Shown here piece after piece: positions 14,680-38,703 of a stretch of 64,000 nt of DNA (the stretch's first letter is position 1; the number at the start of each line of letters is the position of its first letter). This DNA comes from Gulosibacter massiliensis. Its GTDB lineage: Bacteria > Actinomycetota > Actinomycetes > Actinomycetales > Microbacteriaceae. The position numbers were made by a program, and so were the translations under genes. The notes beneath the pieces were generated by a model that ran no database searches, had not been told where the DNA came from, and saw only the letters and a list, made by a program, of their open reading frames with translations. Location of the stretch: NCBI GenBank assembly GCA_945949175.1, contig CAMFDU010000002.1, positions 1-64,000 of the forward strand, written 5' to 3'.

Positions 14680-15231
14680 ATGACCGCCGACCGCTCGCAA
14701 CTCGCGTCTCTCATCAAGGACAACGCAGTTTTTTTCGGTGATTTCACGTTGACGAGCGGCGTGACGGCGACCTACTACATCGACCTTCGTCGGGTCAGCC
14801 TTGACCACCGCATCGCCCCACTGATCGGTGACGTCATGGTCGACCTCATCGCTGATATCCCCGACATCGCCGCCGTGGGTGGACTAACAATGGGCGCTGA
14901 CCCGATTGCGTCCGCTGTTCTGCACCGAGGTGTCCTGAAGGGCAAAAGATACGACGCGTTCGTTGTTCGAAAAGAACCCAAGGACCACGGTCGCGGTAAG
15001 CAGGTCGAAGGCCCCGACCTCGAGGGCAAGCGAGTCATCGTCCTCGAAGACACGTCAACGACGGGTGGATCGCCGCTCGCGGCTGCGGCAGCCCTGGAAA
15101 AAGCGGGTGCGATCGTTGTCGCCGTCGCAGTTGTTGTGGACCGAAACACGGGCGCAAAGGAAGTTATCGAGGCGGCCGGTTACGAATATCGTTCGGCGAT
15201 TTCACTGAGCGATTTGGGGTTGCAATCATGA
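14680..15231 (+). CDS. pyrE: orotate phosphoribosyltransferase
   Basis: FGDFTLTSGVTATYYIDLRRVSLD; GKRVIVLEDTSTTGGSPLAA PRPP-binding motif. Confidence 0.93.
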   Translation: MTADRSQLASLIKDNAVFFGDFTLTSGVTATYYIDLRRVSLDHRIAPLIGDVMVDLIADIPDIAAVGGLTMGADPIASAVLHRGVLKGKRYDAFVVRKEPKDHGRGKQVEGPDLEGKRVIVLEDTSTTGGSPLAAAAALEKAGAIVVAVAVVVDRNTGAKEVIEAAGYEYRSAISLSDLGLQS

Positions 15232-16403
15232 CCGACAAGGACAACGAAGACTTCCGCGACGACGTTGATTGGCTCAAAGACGCGTTCAATCGCGCCGTTC
15301 AGGGCGATAACGGCACGGTCCCTGATGCCGCGCGCCCGGTGGCCAACCCCTTCGCCGACTTGACCCCGAAGGACTCCTCTGCGTCAGTCGAGCCCGTCCT
15401 GCCGATTGAGCCCATCGCTCCGCCAACTCCGACCGTCCCAGAGGATTCGGTTGAGATGCCGTCGAACCGACACGACCTCGATCTTGACTTCGAGACTGAC
15501 GACATGCCTCCAGTCACGTCGTTTGAACCGGTGATGCCGGTCGATCACTCAATTCCGTCGGTTGCGACCGATTACCCGCCAACCGAAACGCTTGACGCGG
15601 TTGATTTACCGGCAACGGCGCTGTCCGAACCCGATGCGCCTCATGTTCACGCCGCCACGCCGCCCCCCACACTGTCGGAGGAATCGAGCGGGATCGACCA
15701 AATCGACGCGCTGTTTTCGTCTGCCACGACATCGGCACCGACGGTTCCGATTGAGTCCTCACCAGTGAGTCCCCAGCCTGCGATGTCGAGACCCACTCGT
15801 GAACCAAAACCTGCCGACCAGACGAAGTCTCGCCAGAGTTTGGTGCTGATTTTTGGTGGAATCTTTGTTGTCATCGCGGCGATTGGCGCGTTTATTGCGG
15901 GCGGATTCGTGGCCTCTCCAACTGCCGCGCCTCTGACCGAAGTCACCGATGGGCCGGTCGCACCAACCACAGCACAGCCGCCGGGGGAATACAACTTCAG
16001 TGAACTTGTTGGGGGCGAATGCCTCGATCCGTTCGACACCGCGTGGGCCTCGACATTTACGGTTGTCGATTGTGCGACCCCGCACACCGCACAACTTGTC
16101 TACGCCGGCGATCTCGCGATCGACGGGTCTTACCTGTCGTACCCTGGCGACGACAGCACAGGGAACGCCGCGATGGCGGAATGTTCTCGCAAGGGCGTCC
16201 TCAATATGGCGGCGGCAAAACCTTTCTCTGACTTGCTTGTGTCGGCCGCTTACCCCATTTCCGCAGAGGTGTGGGATTCAGGGGACACGCGGTATTACTG
16301 TTTCGTCTCTCTCTCGAGCGGCGATCTCATCGGCGTAGACCTTGCCGGCAAATTGATTACGCAGGGAGCAGAGGCAACTCCGGAACCGACCGCGACCCCT
16401 TAA
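15228..16403 (+). CDS. membrane-anchored protein with extracellular Septum_form-like domain
   Basis: Acidic/Pro-rich N-terminus, one TM (LVLIFGGIFVVIAAIGAFIAGGFV), then NFSELVGGECLDPF...VVDCATPHTAQLVYAGDL...YPGDD...AMAEC...YYC. Confidence 0.75.
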   Translation: MTDKDNEDFRDDVDWLKDAFNRAVQGDNGTVPDAARPVANPFADLTPKDSSASVEPVLPIEPIAPPTPTVPEDSVEMPSNRHDLDLDFETDDMPPVTSFEPVMPVDHSIPSVATDYPPTETLDAVDLPATALSEPDAPHVHAATPPPTLSEESSGIDQIDALFSSATTSAPTVPIESSPVSPQPAMSRPTREPKPADQTKSRQSLVLIFGGIFVVIAAIGAFIAGGFVASPTAAPLTEVTDGPVAPTTAQPPGEYNFSELVGGECLDPFDTAWASTFTVVDCATPHTAQLVYAGDLAIDGSYLSYPGDDSTGNAAMAECSRKGVLNMAAAKPFSDLLVSAAYPISAEVWDSGDTRYYCFVSLSSGDLIGVDLAGKLITQGAEATPEPTATP

Positions 16404-19263: not shown

Positions 19264-19604
19264 ATGCAACACGAAAATGCGCTCATGAATCCGCGGCCTT
19301 TTGTCACCACGGTGGTAGCCGCATCGTTGTTGCTGTCCACAGTGGCTGGATGTGCGCAGAGCGTTCCAACGGAGTCGATTAGCGTGCTTAGCGGGAGTGA
19401 AATTCTTACCGCGGACCTCGGCAGCGATGTCACCGCACGCGGTGTGGTTCTCGCCGCGGTTCTCCTCGTTGCGGGTGATGTCGAGAAGGCTCTTACCAAG
19501 GGTCTCGTCACGGCTCCCGAGGTGGATGCTGCGCGCAAGGCGATTGACGAAGGAACACTCGATATGTGGCGCCAGCGCGCCGAAGCGGACGAGGTCACCC
19601 CGTG

Positions 19605-19605
<1 letters not shown>
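19264..19605 (+). CDS. putative lipoprotein
   Basis: Signal sequence with lipobox-like LLLSTVAGC; 3' end overlaps the next gene (TGATG). Confidence 0.6.
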
Positions 19606-20102
<497 letters not shown>

Positions 20103-31332: not shown

Positions 31333-31730
31333 GTCGCAGCCGACCTACGTGCACCGAGCCGCAATCCGGCAATAGCAAACACGAGACCCATAATGATGGA
31401 TCCGACAGCGTACGTTCCCATCACAACGAGGGGTCCGACACCATGGCGAACAATTGGTACTGCGACGTCGAGCGAGATTGCGGACAGGGTAGTAAAGGCG
31501 CCGAGAAATCCCGTCGTGACACCAAGGCGCATCCAGGCGGGCACAGAAGGCACGCCGCGAGCAACGATGTACCCAAGGGCGAATGAACCGATGAGATTGA
31601 TGACGAGGGTCGGATACGGCCACCAGTAGTCGTCAATTTGACCCGCAACAAGTGTGATGACAACGCGAGCAGCACTCCCTAAAAGTCCGCCGACAAATAC
31701 GGCCAACACCGACTTCAGTGACGTGTGCAC
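31329..31730 (-). CDS. crcB: fluoride channel subunit CrcB/FluC (copy 1)
   Basis: VFVGGLLGSAARVVITL...LGVTTGFLGAFTTLSAISLDV; 4-TM pattern. Confidence 0.85.
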   Translation of the reverse strand: MHTSLKSVLAVFVGGLLGSAARVVITLVAGQIDDYWWPYPTLVINLIGSFALGYIVARGVPSVPAWMRLGVTTGFLGAFTTLSAISLDVAVPIVRHGVGPLVVMGTYAVGSIIMGLVFAIAGLRLGARRSAAT

Positions 31731-31804
31731 AACCGCCAGCGTACTCGTGTCGGATCACGATAATTTCGCGGTTAGGCTTGCGATACGACGCCAAAGGAGT
31801 GCCC

Positions 31805-32257
31805 GTGTCCCTAGTTCCGCTCTTCAGCCACGATGAACATCGTGGCGAAGTCGTTGAACGCTGGGGTAAGAAGGTTTGGAGCCAGTCGTCGTCGTGGTGG
31901 AAGCATCTTGACGCGATTGGACGCGACGAGTTCCTCGCCGAAGGCGTCGCCCTCAGGGTCGAATACCTAGCGGCCAAAGCTGCCCAATTGCCCGTCACCG
32001 CCGACACTGTCGTTGCTCTCGTCCTCCGACACCGAGTCTGGATCACCCAGGGCTGGGGAGGCGTTGAGCCCACCGCCGAGCAATTCATTGGCCTTGGAAA
32101 CATGTATGTCGCAGACGAGCGCTTCGCTCGTCACTATGGAGGAGTCGACGGGGCGAGCTATGTTCGCGACGCGATTATCGCGTGGGTGGCCACAACGCCA
32201 CAGACTTCGGATGCTTCCGACGGACGTAGCAGTGCAACCAAAGGAACAACGTCGTGA
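31805..32257 (+). CDS. stand-alone TipAS-like ligand-binding domain protein (no MerR HTH)
   Basis: GTG start; HRVWITQGWGGVEPTAEQFIGLGNMYVADERFARHYGGVDGASYVRDAIIAWV matches the TipAS C-terminal pattern; TGA overlaps the RND GTG start (GTGA). Confidence 0.75.
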   Translation: MSLVPLFSHDEHRGEVVERWGKKVWSQSSSWWKHLDAIGRDEFLAEGVALRVEYLAAKAAQLPVTADTVVALVLRHRVWITQGWGGVEPTAEQFIGLGNMYVADERFARHYGGVDGASYVRDAIIAWVATTPQTSDASDGRSSATKGTTS

Positions 32258-35200
32258 ACCGTCTCGCCATTTTCAGCCTCAGGAACCGAGCCCTCATCGC
32301 CCTGGTCACGGTTGTTGTTGCTATTTTTGGTGGCGTCGCGATGTCGCTTCTCAAACTCGAGCTGATTCCCTCGATTACGTTTCCACAACTCGTCGTCGTC
32401 ACAAACTACCCAGGCGCATCTCCGATCATCGTCGAGAAGGAAGTTTCGACCCCGATTGAGACGGCGATTCAGGGCGTCAACGGGCTCGAATCAACAACCG
32501 CCACGTCGCAGAATGGTCTGTCGCAGGTCACGGCGGCGTTCGCTTACGGCACGAGCCTTGAATCAGCGGAACAAAAGGTTCAACTGGCGATCAACCGGAT
32601 TTCGAACCTACTTCCGGCTGGAGTCGAGCCGCAGGTTATCGCAGGCTCTTTCTCGGACATCCCCGTGCTCCAAATGGCGGTGACGAGCGACCTCGCCCCT
32701 GATCAACTGAACCAAGCATTGAAAGACATCGCGGTTAAAGAACTGACCAAGCTGGACGGCGTTCGAGATGCCGCGGTGTTTGGCGCTAACGGCGAACACA
32801 TCGCCATCGTTCCCGATGATAAAGAGTTGGAACGGCGTGGATTAACGACCACCGATATACAGACCGCATTACAGACCGCCGGAATTCGAATCGGTGCGGG
32901 CAGTGTTATGTCCGCTAAAGGCGAACTGTCGATTGTGTCGGGAACACCACTCGCGAGCCTCCCGGACATCCGCTCGGTCCCCGTGACGATTCCCTACAAG
33001 CCGCCGCCTGTCACCGTGCCCAAAGCGCCGACCGTGCCGACGTTTCCAACCATCACGGTGAGTCCCCGCGAAGACGGGGATTGGAGCCTCGACGAATTGA
33101 ACGGTGGCGAGTGTTTCGAGCCCTATCCCATCACTGAGGATTTATACACTGTTGTTGACTGTGACGACGCTCACTCGGCGGAACTTGTTCGCGTCGGTGA
33201 CCTGCGCACCGATGCGGGAATCCCGATTTACCCCGGTGACGAGGCTATCGGTGGCGTCGCAATGGGCGAGTGTTTTGCATCGGGAATCATCTCGGCGTCG
33301 GCAAAAGCAACCTACCCCTTGTTGACCACAGCCCCCTTGTTGACCACAGATGTTTTCTACCCGACGAGCCAGACCCAGTGGAACCAGGGCAATACGTTCT
33401 ATTACTGCATTGCGCACAGCTTCTCTGTTGACCCCATTACGGGAAGTGTTGCTGGCAGCAGGGTGAACACCGTTGTTCCGGCTGCGCCAGCAATCCCGGG
33501 AACGTCTGGAACAAGCACTCCGTCATTTGCCTCGCCCGTTGCGCCAGCGATTCCAACCACTCGCGCGGTCACCACTATTGGTGAACTCGCGCGTGTGTCT
33601 ATCCAACCCGACGCCATCACATCCATTTCGAGCGTCAATGGCGAACCGTCGCTGACTCTTGCCATCACGAAACGTGCGGATGCAAACACGGTGGACGTGT
33701 CCCGTGCGGTCACAGCGGCCTTGCCTGCGCTAACTGACCTGCTTGGTAACGGCACTAAGTTCACCATAGTTTTTGACCAGGCGCCGTTCATCGAAAAGAG
33801 CATCGAATCTCTCGCTATCGAGGGCCTGTTGGGACTGTTCTTCGCGATCATCGTGATTCTCGTCTTCCTCCTGTCCATCCGATCGACGCTTGTCACTGCA
33901 GTGTCGATTCCGACGTCGTTGTTGCTCACGTTCATTGGTATGTGGGCGAGTAACTTCTCACTCAACATCCTCACCATCGGCGCGGTCACAATCTCGATTG
34001 GTCGAGTCGTTGACGACTCGATTGTGGTTGTGGAAAACATCAAGAGACACCTGTCACTCGGTGAAGAACGCATGGTCGCCATTCGTGACGGTGTCAAAGA
34101 GGTCGCCACCGCGGTCACCGCGTCGACGATTACGACGGTCGCGGTGTTCCTTCCGCTGGCGTTCGTGGGCGGATTGTCTGGCGAACTATTCCAACCCTTT
34201 GCTGTAACGGTGACCATCGCACTCCTCGCGTCGCTGTTCGTCTCGCTCACGATTGTTCCCGTGCTCGCCTATTGGTTCCTTGGTGACAAAAAGCCGAAAA
34301 AGAAGGCGTCGACGAAGCCGGCCAAGCCGCTGAAGTCAGGCTCAGAAGACAATGACTTCTTGCAGCGCAACTACCGCCCTATTGTTCGTTGGACCGTCAC
34401 CCACCCCGTTGCGACGATGCTCATCGCCGTTCTCACGTTGGGAGGAACGTTCGCACTGACGCCGTTTGTCAAAACCAACTTTGTGGGCGGAAGTGGCCAG
34501 TCCACCATCACGCTGACGCACTCGACACCCGGTGGACTCACGCTCATGGACCGCGCAGAAGTGGCCGAAGATGTTGAGGCAAAACTGTTGGACTACGAGG
34601 GTATCGAAACCGTTCAGACGTCGATTGGTGGTGGAAACGGTTTTGCGGCTTTCAACGGCCAGGCGGGAAATATCATTTATCAGATCACGATTTCCGACGA
34701 GGTGGATGCTGATCTGGTTCGCGCCGAAATCACGCGTGACCTGGAAACCATTACCGACACGGGTGAAATTGTCTCGGCACAGGGCGGTGCGTTCGGTTCA
34801 CAGACCATCGATATCACGGTGAAGGCCCCATCGGAAGAGACACTCGCCGAGGTCACCGCAGCCATCGCGGCGGCAATCACAGAGACGAAAGCCGCCGACA
34901 GTGTCACGACGTCGCTCGACGATACCCAGTCGTTCATTTCAATCTCGATCAAGCGAAAGGAAGCGGCGACATACGCGCTGTCGGAAGTTCTTATTGGGCG
35001 GACGCTGTCGGGACTCATCGCACCAAGCGCTATCGGTCAGGTCGTTATCGACGACGTCACCATGGATCTGATCGTCGAGTCGAAGAACTCCCCCGAAACG
35101 CTGGGGGAATTGCGGAATTACAAACTGACCACACCTCTCGGAGCGAAGGTTCTACTGTCGAAGGTGGCAACAATCGGAATTACCGAAACTGCTGCATCGC

Positions 35201-35892
35201 GCACCACCGAACGTGGTGTCCTGTCTGCTTCAGTTGCAATCACGCCCACGTCGGACAACCTCACGGAGTCGACCGCGGTGGTTAACACTGCGCTTGCGAG
35301 CGTTGACCTTCCGTCGGGTACGACGGCGACAATCGGTGGTGTCGCTCAAGACCAGGTCGAGTCGTTCCAGCAACTTGGACTCGCGCTCCTTGCCGCGATC
35401 TTGATTGTGTATGTCGTGATGGTCGCGACGTTCCGATCGCTACGTCAACCCCTGCTGCTGCTCGTGTCGATTCCGTTTGCCGCAACCGGAGCAATTGCAC
35501 TCCAGATCATCTCGGGAATCCCACTCGGAATCTCGTCACTGATCGGGCTGTTGATGCTCGTCGGAATCGTTGTCACCAACGCCATTGTTCTTATCGACCT
35601 CGTAAACCAATACCGCGAACGAGGGGGTTCGGTGGTCGATTCGTTGCTCGACGGAACCAGCCGACGTGTTCGACCGGTGTTGATGACGGCACTCGCGACG
35701 ATTTTCGCACTCACGCCGCTCGCGACCGGCGTGACAGGAAGCGGCGGATTCATTTCGCAACCGTTGGCGATTGTCGTCATCGGCGGTTTGTTGTCATCGA
35801 CAATCCTCACACTGCTCGTTCTTCCCGCGCTCTATTCGCTCGTCGAAGGGCGCAAGGAACGCAAGGCGACTCGTCGGGCCCTGAAGGCCTAA
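32254..35892 (+). CDS. RND-superfamily (HAE1/AcrB-like) transporter with inserted Septum_form-like domain
   Basis: 1212 aa; N-terminal LAIFSLRNRALIALVTVVVAIFG; ISIGRVVDDSIVVVENIKRHL with paired Asp; second RND repeat; insertion described separately. Confidence 0.92.
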   Translation: MNRLAIFSLRNRALIALVTVVVAIFGGVAMSLLKLELIPSITFPQLVVVTNYPGASPIIVEKEVSTPIETAIQGVNGLESTTATSQNGLSQVTAAFAYGTSLESAEQKVQLAINRISNLLPAGVEPQVIAGSFSDIPVLQMAVTSDLAPDQLNQALKDIAVKELTKLDGVRDAAVFGANGEHIAIVPDDKELERRGLTTTDIQTALQTAGIRIGAGSVMSAKGELSIVSGTPLASLPDIRSVPVTIPYKPPPVTVPKAPTVPTFPTITVSPREDGDWSLDELNGGECFEPYPITEDLYTVVDCDDAHSAELVRVGDLRTDAGIPIYPGDEAIGGVAMGECFASGIISASAKATYPLLTTAPLLTTDVFYPTSQTQWNQGNTFYYCIAHSFSVDPITGSVAGSRVNTVVPAAPAIPGTSGTSTPSFASPVAPAIPTTRAVTTIGELARVSIQPDAITSISSVNGEPSLTLAITKRADANTVDVSRAVTAALPALTDLLGNGTKFTIVFDQAPFIEKSIESLAIEGLLGLFFAIIVILVFLLSIRSTLVTAVSIPTSLLLTFIGMWASNFSLNILTIGAVTISIGRVVDDSIVVVENIKRHLSLGEERMVAIRDGVKEVATAVTASTITTVAVFLPLAFVGGLSGELFQPFAVTVTIALLASLFVSLTIVPVLAYWFLGDKKPKKKASTKPAKPLKSGSEDNDFLQRNYRPIVRWTVTHPVATMLIAVLTLGGTFALTPFVKTNFVGGSGQSTITLTHSTPGGLTLMDRAEVAEDVEAKLLDYEGIETVQTSIGGGNGFAAFNGQAGNIIYQITISDEVDADLVRAEITRDLETITDTGEIVSAQGGAFGSQTIDITVKAPSEETLAEVTAAIAAAITETKAADSVTTSLDDTQSFISISIKRKEAATYALSEVLIGRTLSGLIAPSAIGQVVIDDVTMDLIVESKNSPETLGELRNYKLTTPLGAKVLLSKVATIGITETAASRTTERGVLSASVAITPTSDNLTESTAVVNTALASVDLPSGTTATIGGVAQDQVESFQQLGLALLAAILIVYVVMVATFRSLRQPLLLLVSIPFAATGAIALQIISGIPLGISSLIGLLMLVGIVVTNAIVLIDLVNQYRERGGSVVDSLLDGTSRRVRPVLMTALATIFALTPLATGVTGSGGFISQPLAIVVIGGLLSSTILTLLVLPALYSLVEGRKERKATRRALKA
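32995..33575 (+). other. Septum_form-like extracellular domain inserted inside the RND porter region
   Basis: DWSLDELNGGECFEPY...VVDCDDAHSAELVRVGDL...IYPGDEAIGGVAMGEC...YYC flanked by Pro/Thr-rich linkers, between RSVPVTI and TIGELARVSIQ of the RND fold. Confidence 0.8.
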
Positions 35893-36473
35893 GGCGCCGG
35901 GGACAACACCCACAACACCTCGGCAGGCTCGCTTGTTGAGGGGTTTCGCCACGTGTGTGGCTCGCGGCCTCGGAAGGTCATCGCGTCCCCGGCATTGAGA
36001 TTGTGAGTGGTGGGGCCGAGAACGATATCGAAGTGGCCTTTAAGGACATAGACGAATTCGATCTCTGTGTCGAGGGCGTACAGTTCTTCCCCACCGGAAC
36101 CCTGCGGGCTGACGATTGAGTGCAAGACTTCAATGTGTGTTTGCGACCCTGGCGACAACAGGTACTCGCGGGCGTTAATGCCACCAAAGTTGATCATGGC
36201 GCCTTCACCCGCGCGGACAATGGCGCTCGTGGGCGGCTCGAACAATTCACCAACGCGAAGCCCCAAGGCTTCGCACACCGACACCAGCGACGCAACGGAC
36301 GGGGAAACGTGGTCACGCTCGAGCTTGCTCACGAACCCCTCGGTGAGGCCGGCGGCAGCGGCGACTTGACCTAGAGTGAGTCCACGCGCGAGCCTCGTTG
36401 CTCGAAGCCGACCGCCGATCGGAATCGCCTTGTCGCTCACCTGTTTTGCCGTGCGTCGAATGCTGCCGGCCAT
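35889..36473 (-). CDS. XRE-family regulator with C-terminal cupin domain
   Basis: LRATRLARGLTLGQVAAAAGLTEGFVSKLERDHVSPSVASLVSVCEALGL HTH plus cupin GDAMTFRGREPHTWRNPS. Confidence 0.9.
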   Translation of the reverse strand: MAGSIRRTAKQVSDKAIPIGGRLRATRLARGLTLGQVAAAAGLTEGFVSKLERDHVSPSVASLVSVCEALGLRVGELFEPPTSAIVRAGEGAMINFGGINAREYLLSPGSQTHIEVLHSIVSPQGSGGEELYALDTEIEFVYVLKGHFDIVLGPTTHNLNAGDAMTFRGREPHTWRNPSTSEPAEVLWVLSPAP

Positions 36474-36475
36474 GA

Positions 36476-37141
36476 TCAGCGAACGTCCATCGCAACGGCA
36501 CGAACGGGTGCACCATCGATTCCGATGAATTTCATCGGTAGCAACGACACGAGCGGGCCGGCGAAGTCAATCGACTCGAGGTTGCACAGGTTTTCACAGA
36601 TAACGCCGCCAACCTTGGCAATGAGGTGGTGGGCGGGGAATCCTTCGCCTGGATGAGTGTCGTCGGGCGTTTCGTCGATGTTAAGTGCGTCGAGCCCGAT
36701 TGTGCGAACACCCCGGTCAAGGAGGAACGACACGAGTCCGGCATCGAGGAACGGATTGTCGAAGTACGCGGGGGTTCCGTAGTGACGAGCCCAACCGGTG
36801 TTAACGAGGACGATGTCGCCGGCGCGGGCAGACTCGGCTTCGGTTCGAACAGAATCAAGAGTGATGCGCTGGCGAGCCGCTACGCCGTCGCAGTGCAGGA
36901 CCACGCCACGACCGACGAATCGATCCAGTGCAACTTCATCAATCTTTTCGGTGTCGTCATCGAAATGGAATGGCGCATCGACGTGCGTTCCGCTTTGGCT
37001 TCCCATGTGAATCGACACGAGGTTGAACCCGTCGTTGGCAATCGTCGCATGTTGGGCGATGTGTGGAACGGGGTCACCGGGATACACCACGGTCTCGGCA
37101 GTGATTTCGCGGGAAAGGTCAACGACACGAACTATCTCCAT
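36476..37141 (-). CDS. cyclase family protein (kynurenine formamidase/isatin hydrolase-like)
   Basis: VDLSREITAETVVYPGDPVP; HMGSQSGTHVDAPFHF: PF04199-type metal-binding motif HxGTHxDAPxH. Confidence 0.85.
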   Translation of the reverse strand: MEIVRVVDLSREITAETVVYPGDPVPHIAQHATIANDGFNLVSIHMGSQSGTHVDAPFHFDDDTEKIDEVALDRFVGRGVVLHCDGVAARQRITLDSVRTEAESARAGDIVLVNTGWARHYGTPAYFDNPFLDAGLVSFLLDRGVRTIGLDALNIDETPDDTHPGEGFPAHHLIAKVGGVICENLCNLESIDFAGPLVSLLPMKFIGIDGAPVRAVAMDVR

Positions 37142-37153
37142 GAGAAAAAACTA

Positions 37154-37168
37154 TTGCCTGAGAGGCAA
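37154..37168. promoter_or_regulatory. inverted repeat TTGCCT-gag-AGGCAA between divergent cyclase and permease genes
   Basis: Perfect 6-bp arms with 3-nt spacer, 13 bp upstream of the cyclase start and about 54 bp upstream of the permease start. Confidence 0.5.
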
Positions 37169-37221
37169 GAAAGGAATAGCATGGCGTCACATTGCTTTGC
37201 CAACCTTTAGAGAGGATAACG

Positions 37222-38703
37222 ATGAGCAACGTTGCTCAGAACCCCAAACCGAAAATCACCGAGGTCGAAGGCTTCGGAATTGACACCATTCCCGACGCCG
37301 ACCGCACGTCGACGCCGCGCGACTTGTTTCGCATCCAGTTCGGAGGCGCAAACACCTTTGCCACCGTTCTGCTCGGAACCTTCCCCATCTTTTTTGGACT
37401 CTCCTTTTGGGAGGGCGTCGGCGCCGCCGTTCTCGGTGTGCTCGTCGGAACACTGTTCCTCATGCCGATGGGACTCTTTGGTCCTCGCACCGGAACCAAC
37501 AATGCGGTCGCATCGGGTGCACACCTCGGTGTCACCGGGCGTATCGCCGGTTCGTTCCTGTCGCTGCTGACCGCAATCGCGTTCTATTCGATTTCGGTGT
37601 GGGTCGGTGGTGACGCCCTCGTCGGCGCATTCGTTCGCTTGTTCGGCGCCGAGGACTCCCCGATGCTGCGCATCAGCCTCTACTCACTCATCGGACTCAT
37701 CGTGATCGTCGTCGTGGTTTACGGCTATCAGTTCATGTTGCTCATCAACCGCATCGCGGTGTGGGCCAACACGGTTCTGATGCTGCTCGCCATCGTCGCT
37801 TTCGCCAGCGTCTTCGACCCTTCGTATGCCGGTTCGGGTGAATACTTGCTCGGTGGCTTCTGGCCGACGTTCATCCTGTCAGCCCTCATCGTCATGTCGA
37901 ACCCGATCTCATTCGGAGCCTTCCTCGGCGACTGGTCGCGTTACATCCCGAACGGAACGTCAAATGGCAAGCTTGCGCTCGCCACGCTCGGCGCCCAGTC
38001 AATGACGTTGATTCCGTTCATCTTCGGTGTCGCAACGGCGACGTTGGTGACCGGCGGGGACTACGTTGTCGGACTCATCGGCGCTGCGCCAGAGTGGTAC
38101 GCCTACCTCATCATCATCGTTGCGTTCGTCGGTGGTTTGTCCACGGGTAGCACCTCGCTTTACGGAACCGGGCTCGACTTCTCATCCGTGTTCCCCAAAC
38201 TGACTCGCGTTCAGGCAACCATTGCCATCGGTACCGTCGCTTTCGCGTTCATCGTGATTGGTCGTCTGTACTTCGACCTGCTCGGTGCCGTCAACGGATT
38301 CGTCGGTGCAATCGTCGTGACCACTACTCCGTGGATGATCATCATGGCAATCGGATTCTGGAACCGTCGAGGTTGGTACAGCGTCGAAGATCTTCAGGTC
38401 TTCAACCGCGGCAAGAAGGGCGGCCGCTACTGGTACAACAACGGAATCAACTATCGTGCAATGGTCGCATGGGTCGTCTCGGCAGTCCTTGGCCTGCAGT
38501 TTGCCTACTACCCGCCAATCATCGAAGGACAGTGGAACGCGGTTGCGGGTGGAGTCGACCTCAGTCTCATCGTCGCAATTGTTTCAGCAGCCGTGTTGTA
38601 CATTGGCGCGTTGATTATCTTCCCGGAGCCCGACTATGTGTTCGGACCGAAGGGTCCCCGCATCGGTCGTTCGGTGAAGTCCACCATTCCGCCCGTCCGT
38701 TAG
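37222..38703 (+). CDS. NCS1-family permease (cytosine/purine/thiamine/allantoin type)
   Basis: IQFGGANTFATVLLGTFPIFFGLSFWEGVGAAVLGVLVGTLFLMPMGLFGPRTGTNNAVASGAHLGVTGRIAGSFLS; 12-TM NCS1 pattern. Confidence 0.85.
   Translation: MSNVAQNPKPKITEVEGFGIDTIPDADRTSTPRDLFRIQFGGANTFATVLLGTFPIFFGLSFWEGVGAAVLGVLVGTLFLMPMGLFGPRTGTNNAVASGAHLGVTGRIAGSFLSLLTAIAFYSISVWVGGDALVGAFVRLFGAEDSPMLRISLYSLIGLIVIVVVVYGYQFMLLINRIAVWANTVLMLLAIVAFASVFDPSYAGSGEYLLGGFWPTFILSALIVMSNPISFGAFLGDWSRYIPNGTSNGKLALATLGAQSMTLIPFIFGVATATLVTGGDYVVGLIGAAPEWYAYLIIIVAFVGGLSTGSTSLYGTGLDFSSVFPKLTRVQATIAIGTVAFAFIVIGRLYFDLLGAVNGFVGAIVVTTTPWMIIMAIGFWNRRGWYSVEDLQVFNRGKKGGRYWYNNGINYRAMVAWVVSAVLGLQFAYYPPIIEGQWNAVAGGVDLSLIVAIVSAAVLYIGALIIFPEPDYVFGPKGPRIGRSVKSTIPPVR

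Follow-up and report, generated by a model that had tools for sequence, protein, structure and literature searches.

A divergent Septum_form-like domain nested in a predicted AcrB-type RND permease of Gulosibacter

AcrB-type RND (resistance-nodulation-division) drug pumps are best known from Gram-negative bacteria. Here we describe a relative from the actinomycete Gulosibacter massiliensis, encoded on the forward strand at 32254-35892 of a 64,000-nucleotide stretch (assembly GCA_945949175.1, contig CAMFDU010000002.1, positions 1 to 64,000; hereafter the window). Judged from profile matches, its product is an AcrB-type (HAE1/AcrB-like) RND permease that is interrupted once, and the interruption holds a domain which by alignment is a divergent relative of Septum_form (PF13845). 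The insert-bearing RND is real and inherited, a variant of a known pump that occurs in one group of uncultured lake bacteria.

The reading frame is open over 1212 amino acids from a GTG start, with no internal stop. Its product matches the Pfam family ACR_tran (PF00873) with an E value of 9.5e-196 (653 bits, cut-off 28). In a profile search of the genome this match falls into two blocks, profile positions 4-245 at 32272-32985 and 254-1020 at 33574-35844, which together span almost the whole profile; this is why we take the product for an AcrB-type permease with a single interruption. Between profile positions 245 and 254 it has about 190 amino acids in place of about 8 in the family. The initial annotation of the window had placed such an interruption between RSVPVTI (residues 240-246, 32971-32991) and TIGELARVSIQ (residues 441-451, 33574-33606), and this proved correct. 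More specifically, the inserted stretch comprises residues 247-440, about 194 residues, and consists of a linker, the domain and another linker. The motifs noted in it at that time are all present: GGEC at residue 284, VVDC at 300, HSAELV at 307, YPGD at 326, AMGEC at 336 and YYC at 383.

The predicted fold points the same way. A full-length AlphaFold2 model has a mean pLDDT (predicted local distance difference test) of 69.5 and finds AcrB, AcrD and CusA folds in the PDB (Foldseek, E down to 1.7e-58), with TM-scores of about 0.7 by query and 0.8 by target. The Asp-Asp pair of transmembrane (TM) segment 4 is kept as Asp587-Asp588. In the TM10 motif VVTNAIV there is a Thr at the position expected for Lys in 14 out of 14 rows inspected. 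The proton-relay residues of AcrB are Asp407, Asp408 and Lys940, the last of which corresponds to the TM10 position where the window pump has Thr. The exporter is presumably proton-driven.

When the insert-free orthologue of strain MWH-Ta3 is aligned to MexB and AdeB, the insert site corresponds to VNPDGS of MexB, directly before the conserved DVAxV strand. The N-terminal (DN) and C-terminal (DC) docking subdomains of AcrB have one upward hairpin each (PMC4403515), and the beta-1 hairpin of AcrB holds Asp256, which a docking model puts close to the interface with TolC (PMC2292822). By this alignment the insert sits at the tip of the DN beta-1 hairpin, the position already proposed for it by rough comparison. 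In an alignment of the window RND with 26 other actinomycete RNDs, 19 rows are insert-free, and in these the DN hairpin stretch has between 13 and 84 amino acids; the DC hairpin stretch has 33-34 in all 27 rows. It appears that in these proteins one docking hairpin is relaxed and the other is not.

The inserted domain resembles the C-terminal domain (about residues 253-373) of a single-TM protein encoded at 15228-16403 of the same window. Identity is 38% over 140 columns, and the local score is 227 as compared to a mean of 31.9 (standard deviation 5.5) and a maximum of 67 in 1000 shuffled sequences (z about 36), which bears out the likeness first seen by eye. At the DNA level, in a test for recent duplication, no significant similarity was found between the insert and this gene. 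The number of invariant residues in the domain family is 14 in an 18-row alignment and 9 in a 40-row alignment; they include four Cys, one His and one Trp, and the four Cys of the insert may form two disulfides. Against Septum_form the insert scores 14-20 bits, under the Pfam gathering cut-off of 25, and the single-TM protein is at the border (24.8 bits by hmmscan, 25.2 in the genome search). Since PF13845 is matched at E<=0.001 by 36 of the 40 members of the domain alignment, we consider the sub-threshold insert a divergent relative of this family. The relationship to Septum_form proposed initially is supported in this divergent form. The isolated domain (33064-33486, modelled with 40 sequences) is predicted by AlphaFold2 as a globular alpha/beta structure with a mean pLDDT of 89. 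A profile search of the PDB with the domain gave only weak matches to antibody light chains (E at least 0.06), which we judge to be due to chance.

Two side observations concern other family members. The pyrE gene overlaps the start of the gene for the single-TM protein by 4 bases (14680-16403), which suggests co-translation. A third Septum_form-like protein of the genome (G000:C39:6854-7132, reverse strand, a 173-amino-acid open frame) is probably a lipoprotein, as it has a lipobox-like LTGC motif.

Fifteen genomes of this Microbacteriaceae genus were surveyed with residues 1-515 as the query. An unbroken match is present in 8 of them, the window's own genome included; the other seven are metagenome-assembled genomes (MAGs) with 64-88% identity over these residues. 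Four genomes (G001, G003, G006 and G010, the last being strain MWH-Ta3) have an insert-free RND that is matched as two pieces. As for the remaining genomes, a fragment in G005 enters the linker where its contig ends, the RND of G004 is represented by its C-terminal part only, and in G008 the stand-alone domain alone was matched. The order purM, two crcB genes, a TipAS gene and the RND gene is common to insert-bearing and insert-free loci of the genus, in the latter as far as the genes were recovered. Outside the genus (60 relatives; 395 genomes of the class, 103 with a match) the insert is present in no RND among the matches listed, and where both flanking RND pieces are among these matches they are, by reading, no more than about 150 bases apart. 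For fusions elsewhere in the family we sampled 40 other domain-bearing regions, 20 of them mostly picked for long open frames. Among the regions listed no domain-bearing frame from outside the genus matches an RND; in these proteins the domain is at or near the C-terminus, behind a TM segment or Pro/Thr stretch. In a tree of the RND core the insert-bearing proteins form one clade (100/99) within the genus that excludes MWH-Ta3 and the G001/G006 pair, and in a tree of the domain all eight inserts form one clade (100/99). The simplest reading of these trees is a single gain of the insert in an ancestor of part of one genus. It should be added that G012 has a second N-terminal RND fragment (C272, 868-1659), 82% identical, which breaks off at a contig edge within the N-side linker and represents either a strain mixture or a second copy.

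Median dN/dS is 0.16 for the insert domain and 0.15 for the stand-alone domain in matched genomes, a set that includes one stand-alone sequence (G007) truncated to half its length by a stop or a frame break. Constraint is stronger in the RND core than in the insert domain, and mostly weaker in the linkers. These ratios indicate that the domain is maintained under purifying selection and is not decaying. Nearly all insert-bearing genomes have kept the stand-alone protein, and the two copies differ in specific stretches: LVRxGDxRxDAGIPxYPGD is almost invariant in the insert clade and different in the stand-alone copies of the same genomes, and QxQWNKGxTxYYC is conserved in insert-bearing proteins and absent from those stand-alone copies.

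Features of the locus are collected in Table 1. The TipAS protein upstream is probably a co-translated partner of the RND, and it is kept at the genus loci read whether the insert is present or not. In Streptomyces, thiopeptide antibiotics are bound and sequestered by TipAS, a form of TipA (PMC7762955). A complete regulator of the MerR-TipAS type is encoded about 2 kb upstream of the RND in the more distant relative L080. On the basis of these neighbours we think that the pump is probably a drug or peptide exporter. Adjoining the RND gene on the other side (35889-38703) are genes for an HTH (helix-turn-helix)-cupin regulator, an arylformamidase-like cyclase and an NCS1-type nucleobase transporter, kept in most genus loci read. 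Elsewhere in the window, downstream of purA (19566-20102), a predicted secreted protein has a long end of Ser-Glu and Asp repeats (SESESE..., DDDD...), an extremely acidic low-complexity tail.

Table 1. Positions of the RND permease, its parts and related genes in the window
Feature	Position	Strand	Basis
Stand-alone protein with a TipAS drug-recognition domain and without HTH; 4-base overlap with the RND start	31718-32257	+	PF07739, E 5.4e-22
RND permease open reading frame, HAE1/AcrB-like, with nested domain (predicted)	32254-35892	+	PF00873 match; AlphaFold2 model fold
N-terminal part of the RND, up to strand 1 of the DN beta-1 hairpin, residues 1-246	32254-32991	+	Alignment to insert-free relatives and PDB chains
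N-side linker, residues 247-275, Pro/Thr-rich (31% Pro, 21% Ser+Thr)	32992-33078	+	Composition
Inserted Septum_form-like domain, residues 276-402 (about 127 residues)	33079-33459	+	Alignment, profile, AlphaFold2
C-side linker, residues 403-440, Pro/Ser/Thr/Ala-rich	33460-33573	+	Composition
RND core resumed, second DN hairpin strand to C-terminus, TM4 Asp-Asp kept	33574-35892	+	Profile, alignment
Single-TM protein, stand-alone family member (C-terminal homologous domain at 15984-16349)	15228-16403	+	Alignment, profile

Gram-negative pumps of this type face an outer-membrane channel with the same hairpin. In the 94%-complete genome no match was found to OEP/TolC (PF02321), HlyD_D23 (PF16576) or HlyD_3 (PF13437), and controls were matched; the combination of a HlyD/MFP (membrane fusion protein) adaptor and a TolC-like channel that makes a tripartite pump was thus not seen in the genome searched. 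With no channel or adaptor found, the hairpin tip would be free to change. However, the suggestion in the initial annotation that the docking face for an outer-membrane factor has been replaced goes too far, because each protomer has two hairpins, of which one is altered and the other, DC, is normal, and because the insert-free relatives also belong to the monoderm actinomycetes.

The explanation that we favour, at somewhat less than even confidence, is that the domain serves as a binding head on the outer mouth of the pump and tethers it to a partner in the cell envelope. A copy of a resident extracytoplasmic module, the divergent Septum_form domain otherwise carried by a single-TM protein, would have been inserted once into the tip of the DN hairpin, a tip that had been vacated and was thereby reused. 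If an AcrB-like trimer is formed, three domains would surround the exit funnel on its wall side. Their stalks would be flexible and may be O-mannosylated, since the genome encodes a PMT-family protein mannosyltransferase and since Rv3835 of Mycobacterium tuberculosis, a Septum_form protein (PMC7921967), is hexosylated in Pro-rich peptides (PMC7287972). The domain would attach the outer mouth to a wall polymer or protein, in common with the stand-alone members, and the attachment would hold or position the pump. Several points weigh against a binding head. No ligand or partner for any member of the domain family was found in the literature, and a Foldseek search of the domain model against the PDB gave no match with E<=0.001, so that a binding role cannot be read from the fold. 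In the full-length model the insert has pLDDT mostly below 50, i.e. its placement is not predicted, and at 94% genome completeness the absence of an adaptor is not fully proven. The DN hairpin is variable and tolerant, and the presence of the domain could leave transport unaffected. Moreover, the domain is dispensable for core pump activity, because four members of the genus, MWH-Ta3 included, keep the pump without it.

In an explanation that we rank second and regard as rather unlikely, the domain does the job of the single-TM protein, and the RND serves it as an additional membrane anchor, with transport unaffected. The insertion site tolerates different lengths in relatives, the linkers are low-complexity and faster-evolving, and the domain is constrained to the same degree as the stand-alone copy. 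However, the two stretches conserved only in the insert suggest specialisation to the pump context, and retention of the stand-alone protein in nearly all these genomes also speaks against such a passenger role. In third place, and less probable again, comes a gate or capture device in which the three domains would form a cover over the funnel and take up, chaperone or release an exported amphiphile. It would suit the position at the funnel rim obtained by alignment to AcrB-type pumps and the TipAS neighbour, a drug-binding domain that would be in keeping with a bulky, peptide-like substrate; in MmpL5, too, an actinobacterial RND, a 196-amino-acid periplasmic insertion has been modelled as an exit conduit (PMC12501195). 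On the other hand, linkers of about 29 and 38 residues favour a loose tether over a fixed cap, the same domain is found on non-transporter proteins, and Foldseek gave no fold match to a ligand-binding protein in the PDB.

Recruitment of the pump to the division site by the domain is very improbable. The idea comes from the name of the Pfam family and from Rv3835, which was proposed to be ZipA-like from transcription profiling of septum-inhibited cells (PMC3989709). This link was unvalidated at the time of that review, hence the name is unfit as evidence and the "septum-directed" role put forward in the initial annotation is unsupported beyond it. By RND topology the domain would also be on the outer side of the membrane, unlike an FtsZ tether, and its match to Septum_form is sub-threshold. 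As the draft genome that contains the window consists of 63 contigs, an assembly chimera or mis-joined contig was considered as well. We reject it as having next to no probability: seven other, independent MAGs carry the same fusion, with the same junctions, an open frame and the same flanking genes. The idea that the insert is a universal actinobacterial feature is rejected too, because insert-free relatives exist in and outside the genus among the matches listed.

Comparison with known systems helps to place the protein. It shares with AcrB and MexB (HAE-1, PF00873) the duplicated architecture, porter and docking subdomains (by alignment), the TM4 Asp-Asp pair and the overall fold, but differs in its actinobacterial host, in lacking an adaptor or TolC in the genome as searched, and in the nested stretch of about 190 amino acids in the DN hairpin. 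The insert-free MWH-Ta3 orthologue (L079) is about 65-68% identical on either side of the site, has the same TipAS neighbour and is at the same site of the chromosome, near purM; like other Microbacteriaceae RNDs it has an ordinary short hairpin, 19-25 amino acids in close relatives between the anchors used. With Septum_form proteins (Rv3835 and the single-TM proteins of Microbacteriaceae) the domain shares GGEC, VxC, YPG, a third Cys, WxxGxxxxxC and a Pro/Thr-rich stalk outside the TM segment. Theirs, however, is C-terminal on a single-TM protein, whereas that of the window is nested in a transporter and scores under the Pfam cut-off. The closest parallel is the MmpL5 insertion of M. tuberculosis MmpS5L5 (HAE-2), an actinobacterial RND with an extracytoplasmic insertion of similar size. 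The two insertions are not alike in subdomain, fold or RND subfamily: that of MmpL5 is located in PD2 and predicted to be an antiparallel coiled coil that forms a tube (PMC12501195), while ours lies in the DN hairpin of an HAE-1-like protein and is modelled as globular alpha/beta with flexible linkers, not as a coiled coil. In the open-access literature we found no description of a globular domain or other insertion in the DN docking hairpin of Gram-positive RNDs.

How an AcrB-type pump works in bacteria without an outer membrane has been little studied. Insert-bearing and insert-free orthologues in one genus, at the same locus and with the same TipAS neighbour, allow a comparative test of what the docking hairpin does in a monoderm, and a pump-linked member gives a handle on a domain family without a findable solved structure or validated function. 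More tentatively than for the binding head itself, we suggest that in monoderm actinobacteria the beta-1 hairpin of AcrB-type pumps, freed from docking to an outer-membrane factor, may be an evolvable attachment site; here it would have gained a globular head that binds the envelope, and the result would be an RND pump that has no adaptor but its own docking module on the wall side.

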